The position numbers and the translations under genes are program-made. The notes under the pieces are model-generated. The model was not told the DNA's origin. It was given only the letters and a program-made list of their open reading frames with translations, and did no database searches. DNA of 64,000 bases from Alysiella crassa DSM 2578 (GTDB lineage Bacteria; Pseudomonadota; Gammaproteobacteria; Burkholderiales; Neisseriaceae): the NCBI RefSeq assembly GCF_000745955.1, contig NZ_JQKH01000006.1, positions 1-64,000 on the forward strand, written 5' to 3'. Numbering within the stretch: position 1 is the first letter of the stretch; each line of letters begins with the position of its first letter. Positions 3,078 through 56,642 of the stretch are shown here, one piece after another.

Positions 3078-3806
3078 ATGTCTTCTCAAGTTACTATGCG
3101 CCAAATGATTGAAGCTGGCGTACATTTCGGTCACCAAACTCGTTACTGGAACCCAAAAATGGCACAATACATTTTTGGTGCCCGCAACAAAATCCACATC
3201 ATCAACTTGGAAAAAACCTTGCCTTTGTTTAACGAAGCGCAAGAAGTGGTGCGCCGTTTGGTTGCCAACAAAGGCACGATTTTGTTTGTTGGTACAAAAC
3301 GCCAAGCGCGTGAAATCATCAAAGAAGAAGCACAACGCGCAGGTATGCCTTACGTTGACCATCGCTGGTTGGGCGGCATGCTGACCAACTACAAAACCGT
3401 CAAACAATCCATCAAACGCTTGGAAGAAAAAGCCGCTTTGTTGGCAAACGCCGAATCAAGCGGTTACAACAAAAAAGAATTGTTGGACATGACCCGCGAA
3501 GTGGAAAAATTGGAACGCTCTTTGGGCGGCATCAAAGACATGAAAGGTTTGCCTGACGCGATTTTCGTGATTGACACAGGCTACCAACACGGTACTTTGG
3601 TGGAAGCCGAAAAATTGGGCATTCCCGTGATTGCCGTTGTGGACACCAACAACAGCCCTGACGGTGTGAAACACGTTATCCCTGGTAACGATGACTCTGC
3701 CAAAGCCATTCGTTTGTACTGCCGTGGCATCGCTGATGCTGTGTTGGAAGGCAAAAACCAAGCGGTTGCGGAAACCGTAGCGGCTGCACAACAAGCTGCT
3801 GAATAA
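3078..3806 (+). CDS. rpsB: 30S ribosomal protein S2
   Basis: A 242-residue S2 protein, full family length, opening [28 protein letters not shown] with the strongly conserved GVHFGH segment, and with the PDAIFVIDT and [10 protein letters not shown](N)SPDGV segments typical of S2. It binds the 30S subunit at the head-body junction and is needed for S1 attachment. It is followed directly by tsf, the universal order. The start has AGGAAATTCA before it. In enterobacteria S2 represses its own operon through the leader; a long leader is present here but no matching structure was proven. Confidence 0.98.
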
Positions 3807-3814
3807 GACTTTTG

Positions 3815-3858
3815 TCTTTTCAGGCTGCCTGAAAACGGTTTCAGGCAGCCTGTTTTGA
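3815..3858. terminator. DUS inverted pair between rpsB and tsf
   Basis: TTTTCAGGCTGCCTGAAAA and TTTCAGGCAGCCTG face each other with a 4-base loop and the second arm is followed by TTTTG. The hairpin could lower read-through from rpsB into tsf, or protect the rpsB mRNA end; no separate tsf promoter was evident. Confidence 0.5.
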
Positions 3859-3891
3859 ATTTCATTTGAATTGATATTTTTGGAGAACAAT

Positions 3892-4746
3892 ATGGCAGAA
3901 ATTACTGCAAAAATGGTTGCCGATTTGCGCGCCGCAACTGGCTTGGGCATGATGGAATGCAAAAAAGCATTGGTAGAAGCCGAAGGCAATTTTGAAAAAG
4001 CCGAAGAAATCTTGCGCATTAAATCTGGCGCAAAAGCAGGTAAATTGGCAGGTCGCACGGCTGCCGAAGGCGTGTTGGCTTACGCGATTGAAGGCAAAGT
4101 GGGCGCATTGGTTGAAGTAAACTGCGAAACCGACTTTGTGGCAAAAGACGCTGGTTTTGTTGAATTTGCCAATTTTGTTGCCAAAACTGCGGTGGCGAAA
4201 AAACCCGCTACCGTTGAAGAATTGGCGGCTTTGGTGGAAGACGAGCGCAAAGCCGTGATTGCCAAATTGGGCGAAAACATGTCTGTACGCCGTTTCCAAG
4301 TAATTGAAACTTCTGGCGAATTGGTGGCTTACATTCACGGTGCTTTGGCAACCGAAGGCGTGTTGGTGGAATACACAGGCAGCGAAGACGTGGCGCGTAA
4401 AATCGGCATGCACATCGTTGCAGCGAAACCACAATGCGTACGCGAAGACCAAGTTGATGCGGAAACCGTTGAAAAAGAACGCCACATCTACACCCAACAA
4501 GCGATTGAATCTGGCAAACCTGCTGAAATCGCTGCGAAAATGGTTGAAGGTCGCATCAAAAAATTCTTGGCAGAAGTGTCTTTGAACGGTCAAGCATTTG
4601 TGATGAACCCAGACCAAACCGTTGCCCAATACGCCAAAGAAAATGGCACAGAAATCTTGTCATTCGCACGCTACAAAGTGGGCGATGGCATTGAAAAAGC
4701 GGTTGTGGACTACGCGGCAGAAGTGGCTGCGGCTGCAAAAGTTTAA
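3892..4746 (+). CDS. tsf: elongation factor Ts
   Basis: A 284-residue EF-Ts, the guanine-nucleotide exchange factor that regenerates EF-Tu-GTP. The N-terminal UBA-like segment [27 protein letters not shown] and the TDFVAKD motif (residues about 80-86), which contacts EF-Tu, are both present, as is the C-terminal ALTDQ-like dimerisation region. The start at 3892 is supported by TGGAGA 7 bases upstream and by the invariant N-terminus; a start seven codons earlier is unlikely. It is the second gene after rpsB and ends at a strong DUS-based terminator. Confidence 0.98.
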
Positions 4747-4770
4747 TCTTTTGATTCAGCAATAAAATTT

Positions 4771-4815
4771 AAAGCTGCCTGAAAAGTTTTTTGGCTTTTC
4801 AGGCAGCTTTTCTTC
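4771..4815. terminator. DUS-based bidirectional terminator
   Basis: AAAGCTGCCTGAAAAG pairs with CTTTTCAGGCAGCTTT over an 8-base loop and is followed by TTCTTCTATTTT. It serves tsf on the plus strand and the convergent HNH gene on the minus strand. Confidence 0.75.
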
Positions 4816-4820
4816 TATTT

Positions 4821-5360
4821 TCATTTTGATAGTTGCTTTTTATCCACCATCTTTTTCTTATATTCGGGATGAGATGCTTTAAGGCTACAATGAAAACATA
4901 GGCACATGGCATTTTCACGAGTTCGTTCAAGCTGATTGTTAATTCTCCGCAATGTTGCTTTTACCAATCGGATTCTTTTTTTACAAAAAGCACAAGAACA
5001 TTCTTGTTTTGCCCATACACTTTGTTTCATACTACGATATTGTTCAATACTATCATATATTTCCCGATATACCAAAAGCAATTCATCTTTAATTGTTTGA
5101 GAAACATTTAAAGAATTTATTGTATTGACTGTGGGAATTTCTGCATCTTTTTTTAAATTGCAGTCCATATGTACTGCAAATAGATTAGCGGCACTCTCCA
5201 CTTGCAATTCAACCTCTGGTTTCTGAATCCATTTATATATTGCGCGAGGTATAAAATGTTCCACAGACCATTTTTCATGACTTAAAATGGGTTGATTACA
5301 TAAAATACAAATACCATTACTGTTTTGATATGCTTTTTGTCTGCGTTCTAAAACATTCAC
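4821..5360 (-). CDS. HNH endonuclease domain protein, three CxxC pairs
   Basis: A 179-residue protein with an HNH nuclease core. A first zinc pair C18-I-L-C21 precedes the catalytic strand SVEHFIPRA (H35), and NLFAVHMDCNLKK supplies the N/H part. Two further CxxC pairs lie in the C-terminal half (CAFC and CLCFHC), suggesting a second structural zinc knot. The gene is visibly more AT-rich than its neighbours and stands alone between tsf and gmhA, convergent to tsf, which suggests acquisition by transfer. HNH proteins of this kind occur as restriction or anti-phage nucleases and as mobile-element homing enzymes; which applies here is unknown. GGGAG lies about 10 bases before the start. Confidence 0.7.
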   Translation of the reverse strand: MNVLERRQKAYQNSNGICILCNQPILSHEKWSVEHFIPRAIYKWIQKPEVELQVESAANLFAVHMDCNLKKDAEIPTVNTINSLNVSQTIKDELLLVYREIYDSIEQYRSMKQSVWAKQECSCAFCKKRIRLVKATLRRINNQLERTRENAMCLCFHCSLKASHPEYKKKMVDKKQLSK

Positions 5361-5417
5361 AATTCACTCCCACATTCCTAGAAATAACGGTATCAATTTC
5401 AAATGTTTGTTGTTTTT

Positions 5418-5456
5418 AGGCAGCCTGAAATGCCACTTCCCCATTTCAGGCTGCCT
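5418..5456. terminator. DUS inverted pair behind gmhA
   Basis: AGGCAGCCTGAAAT (5418-5431) is mirrored by ATTTCAGGCTGCCT (5443-5456). It lies immediately past the stop codon of the minus-strand isomerase gene. Confidence 0.5.
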
Positions 5457-6058: not shown

Positions 6059-6403
6059 TTATCCTGTGAGGTTGGTAATCCATTGGGGGCTTGCTGTGCC
6101 TTGTAGCAAAACCGCGTCTAGGCGGCAAGCGGTATTTAGTTGATTGATTTGTAAATAATATTCTGCGCTACGTTGGAGTTTGGCTAATTTATTTGGGGTA
6201 ATGCTGTATGCTGCGCCGCCAAATGCTTGGGTTTTGCGAAATTTCACTTCAACAAACAAGAGTTTATCGCCTAAACGCATGATTAAATCAATTTCGCCGT
6301 ATGGACAATGCCAATTTCGTTCCACCAATTCGCAACCTTGTTCCAGCAAAAAGGCAAGGGCACGGTCTTCGGCGGCTTGTCCTGTGGGGTGGTTTAGTTT
6401 CAT
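6059..6403 (-). CDS. yraN: UPF0102 family protein YraN
   Basis: A 114-residue protein of the YraN/UPF0102 family, full length. The restriction-endonuclease-like fold is marked by YGEIDLIM and LFVEVKFR, which place the acidic and lysine residues of a PD-(D/E)xK nuclease core (D45, E58 region, K60). Its cellular role is not established; it is almost always linked to gmhA/diaA, as here. It starts about 30 bp downstream of the tsaB stop and ends 4 bp before the isomerase start, so tsaB-yraN-gmhA may be one transcript. Confidence 0.9.
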   Translation of the reverse strand: MKLNHPTGQAAEDRALAFLLEQGCELVERNWHCPYGEIDLIMRLGDKLLFVEVKFRKTQAFGGAAYSITPNKLAKLQRSAEYYLQINQLNTACRLDAVLLQGTASPQWITNLTG

Positions 6404-6431
6404 ATTAATTATTTGATTAAATTAAAATTTT

Positions 6432-7097
6432 TCAGGCTGCCTGAATTTTCCGCGCGGCTTGTTCGGCGGCGGTCAGGGCGATTTTATCGCGCACATACAA
6501 TAATTCGGCGTGTGCCGCGTCTGTTTGTGGATAACGTCCTGTTTGCGCCAAAGCCAGATAATCGGCGGCGGTTGGCATATTCAGGCTGCCTGAAAACGGC
6601 ATTTCCAAGGCAAAGGCATTGCCCACGCCACGCATATTTTCGGCGGACACGTTTTCAGGCAGCCTGATGTCGGCGGCTTTGCCCACCGCGTAATCGCTTA
6701 AACGAATGTGGTTTTTCGTGTCAAACCATGCGTAAAACACTTCGCCCATACGCGCGTCTGTAGCGGCTAAAACGCATTCACAATCAGGGATTTGATATGC
6801 CACCGCGTCCAAACACGGTACGCCAATCAAGGGCGTGTCAAACGGTGCCGCCAAACCCTGCGCCACGCCGATTCCAATTCGCAAACCTGTGAATGCGCCC
6901 GCCCCTTGCGCGTACACAATCGCCCCCAAATCCGCCGCCGTGCAATGGGCTTGTGAGAATAGGGCATTGATTTGTGGCAAGATTTCGGCGGACTGTTTAT
7001 TGCCCACTTCGGCGTGAAATTCGGTTTTCAGGCTGCCTGAAATCAGGGCAAGGGATAAATAGCTGGTGCTGGTGTCTATGGCGAGTAGGGGTTTCAT
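6432..7097 (-). CDS. tsaB: tRNA threonylcarbamoyladenosine biosynthesis protein TsaB
   Basis: A 221-residue TsaB, the inactive Gcp-like partner that with TsaD and TsaE transfers the threonylcarbamoyl group to A37 of ANN-decoding tRNAs. It opens MKPLLAIDTSTSYLSLAL and has the GAGAFTGLRIGIGVAQGLA segment typical of the ASKHA-fold family. Three DUS copies are carried inside the gene and read as SGSLKTE, FSGSLN and IRLPEN; a fourth forms the end, giving a QAA-stop C terminus. No good ribosome-binding site precedes the start. The DUS-rich gene shows how much uptake sequence a coding region can hold. Confidence 0.93.
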   Translation of the reverse strand: MKPLLAIDTSTSYLSLALISGSLKTEFHAEVGNKQSAEILPQINALFSQAHCTAADLGAIVYAQGAGAFTGLRIGIGVAQGLAAPFDTPLIGVPCLDAVAYQIPDCECVLAATDARMGEVFYAWFDTKNHIRLSDYAVGKAADIRLPENVSAENMRGVGNAFALEMPFSGSLNMPTAADYLALAQTGRYPQTDAAHAELLYVRDKIALTAAEQAARKIQAA

Positions 7098-54821: not shown

Positions 54822-56642
54822 ATGTTTTCCTTTGCAAAACGCGTTGGCACACTCCTATTAGGTGCGCTATTGGCATTGCCCACTTGGGCGGCAGAGCTGC
54901 AATTGCGCGTGATTGAAACCAGCAATGTGCAAGCACAATTGACCGATTTTGACTACGACCAAGATAAATCCAATCCCCAACTAGGCTACACACGCACTGC
55001 TACTTTGGTCAAAAAAGCCCAGCGTGAAGTGAAAAACCATGTCTATGTGGACAATGGCAATATCTTGCAAGGTTCAGCCATCGGCGATTTTATGCTGACC
55101 AAAGGCTTGGAAGTGGGCGAAATCCACCCCAGCTATTTGGCATTGGAAAAAGCAGGCGCAATGGCGAGTGTGGTGGGGGAACGTGAATTTGCTTACGGTT
55201 TGAATTATTTGGATAAAGCCATCGCCACCTCCAATGTGCCTGTGTTGAGTGCCAATGTGTTTGATGCCAACACCAAAGCACCGCGTTACAAACCTTATTT
55301 ATTTAAAATCATGGATTTGGTGGACACGCAAGGCGAAAAACAACGCATTAATGTCGCGTTTCTTGGTTTGACTTCGCCCAATGTGTTTCACAATAGCCAA
55401 CAGGATTTACGTGGGCAGATTTTAATCAGCGATGTGGTTTTGACCGCGAAAAAATATGTGCCTTTGCTCAAACAATTGGGCGCGGATGTGATTATTGTCC
55501 TAAACCACAGCGAAGCCCATCAAAACGCCTTGTCGCAAATAGATGGCATTGATGTGCTGCTGAATGCAGGCAGCCTGAAAGCCTACGGCAGCGAAATTGG
55601 CACGATGGATTTATTGTTAAACAATAATTCAGGCAGATGGCGCGTGATGAATAAAACATGGGCAACACGCCCCTTGTTCAACCCAGAAACGCAAAAAGCC
55701 AATGCTGGCAACAGTTGGTTAATGAAATGGGTGTTGCGTCATTATCATCGTTCCACCCGTCAATTTATGGCGCAACCTGTGGGCAAAGTGGCGGAAAATT
55801 TGTACAGCTATTTGTCTTTGGTGCAAGACGATTCTGCCGTGCAATTGGTCAATGCGGCGCAAAAAGATTTTGTGCAACGCCAATTGGCAAGGCAGCCTGA
55901 ATTAGCAAAATTGCCCGTATTAAGTGCCACTTCGCCCCTGAAAACAGGCAAACAACACAGCAATGTGTATGATTTCACCAAAATTGAACAGGGCGATGTG
56001 AGCCAACGCCAATTGGCGGATTTGGTGGCGGCTGGCGAAAAAGTGGCGGCGGTGAAAGTGAACGGCGCGGAATTGAAAGAATGGCTGGAATGTTCCGCAG
56101 GCGCGTTTAACCAAATTCAGGCTGCCAGTAAAACAGCGCAACCTTTAATGAATTGGCAATTTCATTCACAGAATTTTGATGTGATTGATGGCGTGTCTTA
56201 CCAATTTGATTTGGTACAGCCTGCGCGTTATAACCAAGATTGTCGTTTGGTGAACGCGAATAGCCAACGCGTGAAAAACTTGAGTTATCGCGGCAAATTG
56301 GTTGAGCCGAAAGCAGAATTTATTGTCGCCACCAATGAAAAACGCGCCAGCGAAGGCAAATTCGCAGGTACGGGCAAACAAAAAGTAGTGCTGAAAGGCG
56401 CGGTGGACACGCGACAAGTGGTTGGCGAATTTGTCCGCGCCCAAACGATGGCAAATGGCGTTGCCGAAACACGCGCCGATAAAAATTGGCAATTTGCGCC
56501 TATGAATGCCACCGTGTCGTTTGAAACATCGCCGAGTGAACGCGCGCGCGCCTACACCGCTTTGGAAGCCACGCGCCCCTATTTGTGGGTGGGGCAAGAC
56601 GCCAAAGGCTTTGCGGTGTATCAATTTGATTTGGATAAATAA
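54822..56642 (+). CDS. CpdB-like periplasmic protein, predicted catalytically inactive
   Basis: A 606-residue secreted protein (signal peptide MFSFAKRVGTLLLGALLALPTWA) that aligns by eye over its whole length with periplasmic 2',3'-cyclic-nucleotide phosphodiesterase / 3'-nucleotidase CpdB. The C-terminal nucleotide-binding half is very close (YSYLSLVQDDSAVQ, KEWLECSAGAFNQI, IDGVSYQFDLVQPARYN, VATNEKRASEGKFAGTG). The N-terminal metallophosphatase half is not: the family's TTDLH reads TSNVQ, DNGD reads DNGN, GNHEF reads GEREF, and the GHAH region reads NAGSLK, written by a DUS, with about 30 residues missing after it. Only the HS of the AHSG motif stays. It probably lacks the two-metal centre and may bind nucleotides without cutting them. 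Confidence 0.85.
   Translation: MFSFAKRVGTLLLGALLALPTWAAELQLRVIETSNVQAQLTDFDYDQDKSNPQLGYTRTATLVKKAQREVKNHVYVDNGNILQGSAIGDFMLTKGLEVGEIHPSYLALEKAGAMASVVGEREFAYGLNYLDKAIATSNVPVLSANVFDANTKAPRYKPYLFKIMDLVDTQGEKQRINVAFLGLTSPNVFHNSQQDLRGQILISDVVLTAKKYVPLLKQLGADVIIVLNHSEAHQNALSQIDGIDVLLNAGSLKAYGSEIGTMDLLLNNNSGRWRVMNKTWATRPLFNPETQKANAGNSWLMKWVLRHYHRSTRQFMAQPVGKVAENLYSYLSLVQDDSAVQLVNAAQKDFVQRQLARQPELAKLPVLSATSPLKTGKQHSNVYDFTKIEQGDVSQRQLADLVAAGEKVAAVKVNGAELKEWLECSAGAFNQIQAASKTAQPLMNWQFHSQNFDVIDGVSYQFDLVQPARYNQDCRLVNANSQRVKNLSYRGKLVEPKAEFIVATNEKRASEGKFAGTGKQKVVLKGAVDTRQVVGEFVRAQTMANGVAETRADKNWQFAPMNATVSFETSPSERARAYTALEATRPYLWVGQDAKGFAVYQFDLDK

Follow-up and report, generated by a model that had tools for sequence, protein, structure and literature searches.

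Within the window, the whole 64-kb stretch of Alysiella crassa DNA that was analysed, an open frame of 606 codons with zero internal stops (Table 1) was found to be CpdB-like along its entire length by profile search and alignment (A1), as the original prediction had stated. The frame is named by the CpdB profile NF006938 (605.8 bits, cut-off 486) and misses the cut-off of the CpdB equivalog model TIGR01390 (589.9 bits, cut-off 883). The 5_nucleotid_C domain (PF02872) was matched with 55.3 bits (cut-off 23.6); Metallophos (PF00149) had no match in the protein at E ≤ 1, the four matches of the genome lying elsewhere. Two CpdB N domains, 3jyf and 5eqv, are the experimental structures nearest to it in sequence, and both full-length homology and a two-domain architecture (NF006938, alignment A1 and the predicted model) place the protein in the CpdB family, while its signal peptide suggests export to the periplasm. 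A distance of 112 bp separates the gene from hemD downstream, in a same-strand order of a CPBP-type gene, the cpdB-like gene, hemD, hemX and hemY. Promoter and terminator scans yielded nothing above shuffled sequence, and the CPBP-type neighbour had no match in four relatives in a search run without a positive control.

Table 1. Features of the cpdB-like gene and its surroundings, in window positions; substitutions are given as E. coli CpdB residue -> residue of this protein.
Feature	Position	Strand	Basis
Gene of a candidate CpdB-like pseudoenzyme, 606 codons	54822..56642	+	ORF and profile; sole match in own genome
Putative signal peptide, residues 1-23, MFSFAKRVGTLLLGALLALPTWA	54822..54890	+	read from sequence; like that of homologues in alignment A1
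TSNVQ: metal ligands D31 -> N35, H33 -> Q37	54918..54932	+	alignment
DNGN: bridging metal ligand D76 -> N80	55050..55061	+	alignment
GEREF: metal ligand N116 -> E120, catalytic H117 -> R121, next N -> A124	55176..55190	+	alignment; PMC7922932 (H117)
H229-S230: single kept metal-ligand position (H225)	55506..55511	+	alignment
Scar: about 42 residues gone relative to the genus mate, among them GHxH and a beta strand of the metallophosphatase sandwich	55512..55601	+	alignment, models
kingDUS AGGCAGCCTGAA at the scar, encoding AGSLK	55568..55579	+	DUS scan
5_nucleotid_C domain, PF02872, E 1.1e-14	55821..56357	+	Pfam
Second intragenic kingDUS	55890..55901	+	DUS scan
DLVAAGEK for DLYLYPNT: Y440 -> A404; Y438, N442 and T443 also lost	56019..56042	+	alignment; PMC7922932 (Y440)
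ATNEKRA for ATNNYRA: base-stacking Y544 -> K507	56340..56342	+	alignment
kingDUS directly behind the stop codon	56649..56660	+	DUS scan

A CpdB match was obtained in four of the 83 Neisseriaceae genomes searched, namely in the genome under study and, as intact genes, in a member of the same genus (G066), a Conchiformibius MAG (G001) and another member of the Neisseriaceae (G082); in genome contigs a single-protein query gave no relatives, an alignment query being needed to find them. In Neisseria, cpdB was reported in none of 306 (PMC9958556). The original prediction had proposed a search for a second, intact cpdB in the genome, and neither a second CpdB nor any other 5_nucleotid_C domain was found in it (2.76 Mb, 99.99% complete), making the present gene its only CpdB; the idea of a backup copy was consequently dropped. 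The intact genes lie at different loci (behind polA in G066, behind dnaG in G082 and elsewhere in G001), and orthology by position was set aside because these unrelated loci provide no synteny support. In a maximum-likelihood tree, the protein groups with those of G066, G082 and G001 (support 87/83), adjoining Actinobacillus indolicus; its end branch measures 1.59 as against 0.07–0.43 for its intact Neisseriaceae sisters. The gene thus looks to have been sporadically transferred and then strongly accelerated in this lineage. Among the more distant homologues, the cpdB of Enterobacter mori (L106:3450-5423) is split in two ORFs, probably as a pseudogene or through a sequencing error, and Serratia marcescens carries two tandem cpdB genes (L082:1034-3046 and 3459-5426).

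To describe the lesions, residues are numbered as in E. coli CpdB, the numbering having been verified against the sequence. Ten residues (D31, H33, D76, N116, H117, H225, H257, H259, Y440 and Y544) are key to metal binding, catalysis or the base clamp, and only one of them, H225 (H229 in the protein's own numbering), is retained; all ten are kept in all 89 other aligned CpdBs. With Burkholderiales added, two of 117 homologues deviate, one by a Y440F substitution and the other as a fragment at a contig end. The seven metal-ligand positions D31/H33/D76/N116/H225/H257/H259 read N/Q/N/E/H/deleted/deleted, leaving no CpdB-type two-metal site, and the histidine with a catalytic role in E. coli CpdB, H117 (PMC7922932), has become an arginine. 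The altered motifs TSNVQ, DNGN and GEREF and the absence of GHxH had been described correctly in the original prediction. The loss in the N-terminal half is equally real, although it had been put at about 30 residues and comes to 42 against the genus mate, as the distance from the NHS motif to the next strand is 35 codons here versus 77 in G066; strand 286–290 of the intact G066 model is missing from the model predicted for the present protein. Since metal ligands, catalytic histidine and base clamp are lost, the protein should be inactive, that is, without hydrolysis of 2',3'-cyclic nucleotides, 3'-nucleotides or cyclic dinucleotides. The two Asp-to-Asn changes, the His-to-Gln change and the Glu-Arg pair at N116-H117 would lower the negative charge left by the absent metals.

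Constraint on the gene is clearly relaxed, given that 35 of the 120 columns that are at least 98% invariant are changed or deleted and that 17 of 196 hydrophobic core positions have become polar. Beyond this broad relaxation, the two sites are hit disproportionately: nine of the ten functional positions were lost, as opposed to 26 of the remaining 110 near-invariant ones (Fisher p 5e-5), and an equally divergent functional homologue (L126) retains all ten key residues.

The second of these sites is the nucleotide-base clamp. In E. coli CpdB the base is stacked between Y440 and Y544 (PMC7922932), and the clamp tyrosines are required for binding in both CpdB and SntA (PMC7922932, PMC8981391). 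Both are replaced in the protein under study, by alanine and lysine, respectively, leaving no such clamp, and Y438, N442, T443 and the invariant R414 of the C domain have been exchanged as well. The C half had been considered almost unchanged, a view that does not survive these replacements or the identity values, which are 48, 44 and 42% for the C half versus 50, 46 and 48% for the N half against G001, G066 and G082, respectively; the C domain retains 48 of its 63 invariant positions. It appears from the sequence that CpdB-style nucleotide binding has been lost.

Despite its relaxation, the gene does not appear to evolve as a neutral sequence. A branch codon model assigned an omega of 0.20 to the cpdB-like branch and of 0.10 to the rest, a difference that is not significant (2dL 2.4), whereby saturation of synonymous sites leaves omega loosely bounded (about 0.08–0.4) and the branch also spans time before the loss. 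An omega of 1 was rejected on this branch (2dL 24.5, p 8e-7) and for each domain (N domain, p 7e-4; C domain, p 8e-5). When neutral mutations were introduced into intact relatives up to the observed 27 replacements among 112 alignable invariant positions, a stop-free frame persisted in 0–0.13% of runs; neutral drift to 60% identity almost never left a stop-free frame and turned 39–42 of about 196 hydrophobic core positions polar (minimum 22), compared to the 17 observed. Furthermore, all indels in the gene are in frame. AlphaFold2 modelling, based on an alignment of 27 sequences from which the E. coli row was left out, returned a mean pLDDT of 89.4 as compared to 91.0 for the intact G066 protein, values that homologues in the alignment may inflate. 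The comparison with CpdB and UshA structures that had been suggested as a check came out in favour of a CpdB fold, which is predicted to be retained: the modelled N half superimposes on 3jyf with a Z score of 40.6 (1.2 Å over 296 residues), and both modelled domains match UshA with Z scores of about 30. Neither another strain nor a sister species sharing this lesion turned up. Selection appears to have preserved both frame and fold and pure decay is disfavoured, the question leaning towards selection; the earlier view that the gene is not simply decaying is favoured by the rejection of omega = 1 and by the neutral runs, which nearly always produce stops.

The original prediction further held that a DNA uptake sequence (DUS) had been written over the GHAH motif. 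GHAH, however, falls in the deleted segment, and the kingDUS at the scar aligns to a later 'GTIHG' stretch. Exact kingDUS copies number 95 in the window (1.5 per kb), 25 of them inside ORFs and distributed over 20 of 59 ORFs. With so many ORFs carrying a DUS, the one at the scar is ordinary and was rejected as a special feature; its placement fits the reported occurrence of DUS in permissive regions (PMC3630211) and needs no special explanation. The suggested spread of an uptake sequence into a freed site is compatible with such placement, although a single DUS at this density is weak evidence for it. Beside the 95 kingDUS the window contains 70 exact simDUS, many of the two forming overlapping dyads, and kingDUS with simDUS dyads has been reported for Simonsiella muelleri, Alysiella crassa and Kingella negevensis (PMC7371117). 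In G066, a simDUS with a single mismatch (KLPE) falls within the stretch missing from the present gene, a weak curiosity.

Two further observations concern the polA region of the genus mate. The polA genes of the genome under study (L118:2317-5218) and of G066 (L013:2935-5836) share 97.35% DNA identity over 2904 bp, where the same pair of genomes shows 78% for rsmD (DNA) and 46% for hemD (protein). The block has a king/sim DUS dyad at its start, a DUS-like TTTTCAGGCAG at its end and flanks that are not directly alignable, and has the appearance of a DUS-bounded interspecies transfer of recent date. Additionally, G066 has a direct repeat of 96 bp (95.8%; L013:5757-5852 and 6351-6446) between its polA and its intact cpdB, perhaps a trace of the insertion of cpdB at that site.

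Among known systems, the protein is compared first with CpdB, the bifunctional 2',3'-cyclic-nucleotide 2'-phosphodiesterase/3'-nucleotidase (in E. coli, PDB 3jyf and 5eqv). It resembles this family in signal peptide, domain order, end-to-end alignment (39–48% identity) and predicted fold, and differs from it by the loss of six of seven metal ligands, H117, both clamp tyrosines and, relative to the genus mate, some 42 residues around GHxH, with Metallophos unmatched. The intact CpdBs of G066, G082 and G001 form its sister group, yet they keep all motifs, occupy other loci and sit on short branches. The UshA/CD73 5'-nucleotidases share the two-domain fold at approximately 18% identity, whereas the active-site residues of both domains are lost here. 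Vps29 and the DNA polymerase B subunits are eukaryotic examples of a metal-less metallophosphatase fold devoid of catalysis; unlike the present protein, they belong to an unrelated family, are cytosolic and lack a 5_nucleotid_C domain. The streptococcal cell-wall CpdB-like proteins SntA and CdnP are of the same family, but are active and possess both tyrosines and the metals; non-catalytic binding roles have been reported for SntA (PMC8981391). A search of the open literature, with subscription journals largely outside it, found no periplasmic nucleotidase pseudoenzyme.

The explanation that we favour, with a probability of about 0.68, is that a CpdB of the Neisseriaceae type has turned into a pseudoenzyme that is folded and periplasmic, has lost both sites and is kept for a non-catalytic role. 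Such a role is likely because nearly all residues for metal binding, catalysis and gripping of the base are gone, yet a complete, presumably exported protein is encoded. The product would be an exported two-domain protein of CpdB fold, lacking the two-metal site, the catalytic histidine and the base clamp, that is most likely kept as a folded periplasmic protein, for example as a binder of some other partner or ligand. More specifically, and tentatively, it may have become a bacterial pseudoenzyme of metallophosphatase fold that binds a new ligand, or acts as a scaffold for a new partner, as a stable protein of the periplasm, in which the Asp-to-Asn changes and the new Glu-Arg pair settle the empty metal site. 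The original prediction of a pseudoenzyme selected to bind or sense nucleotides is therefore supported as regards pseudoenzyme and probable maintenance and not supported as regards nucleotide binding, the clamp tyrosines being alanine and lysine.

It is less probable that the gene is a relict that has lost its function and drifts under weak or no selection, its frame being open through short elapsed time or through selection that acts only against toxic misfolded products. The broad relaxation at invariant and hydrophobic positions and the dispensability of cpdB in Neisseriaceae, as seen in its rarity in the family and its absence from Neisseria, agree with a relict, while the scarcity of stop-free neutral runs, the rejection of omega = 1 and the in-frame indels speak against one. 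An altered enzyme, in which N35, Q37, N80, E120 and H229 make up another kind of site, perhaps for a single metal, that supports a novel activity, is improbable: the four substituted positions are polar and able to touch a metal, H229 is kept and UshA uses a glutamine as metal ligand, but two histidine ligands are deleted, the catalytic histidine is an arginine, acidic ligands are neutralised to asparagine and the clamp is gone, and the exchanges rather resemble charge compensation at an empty metal site. Just as improbable is the periplasmic nucleotide binder or sensor originally envisaged to act through the C domain; it could draw on the persisting Pfam match and the retained invariant C-domain positions, although a retained sensor is unlikely with both clamp tyrosines, which CpdB and SntA require for binding, replaced along with N442, T443 and R414, and with a C half whose conservation does not exceed that of the N half. 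Least probable of all is a moonlighting binder of host molecules or heme in the manner of SntA, for which roles involving heme, host proteins and complement have been reported (cited in PMC8981391). The same-strand run from the CPBP-type gene to hemY, with no plus-strand terminator-like site between the genes, would suit it; this is an argument from gene neighbourhood, however, and the other Neisseriaceae carry their cpdB at loci unrelated to this one.

CpdB-like proteins are regarded as enzymes everywhere, and genomic surveys rely solely on the sequence score when counting them (PMC9958556); NF006938 would thus include the protein described here even though it is probably inactive. The intact CpdB of the genus mate offers a clean comparison partner for it. 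If truly maintained, the protein would represent a bacterial calcineurin-fold nucleotidase that has been retained for a non-catalytic job.
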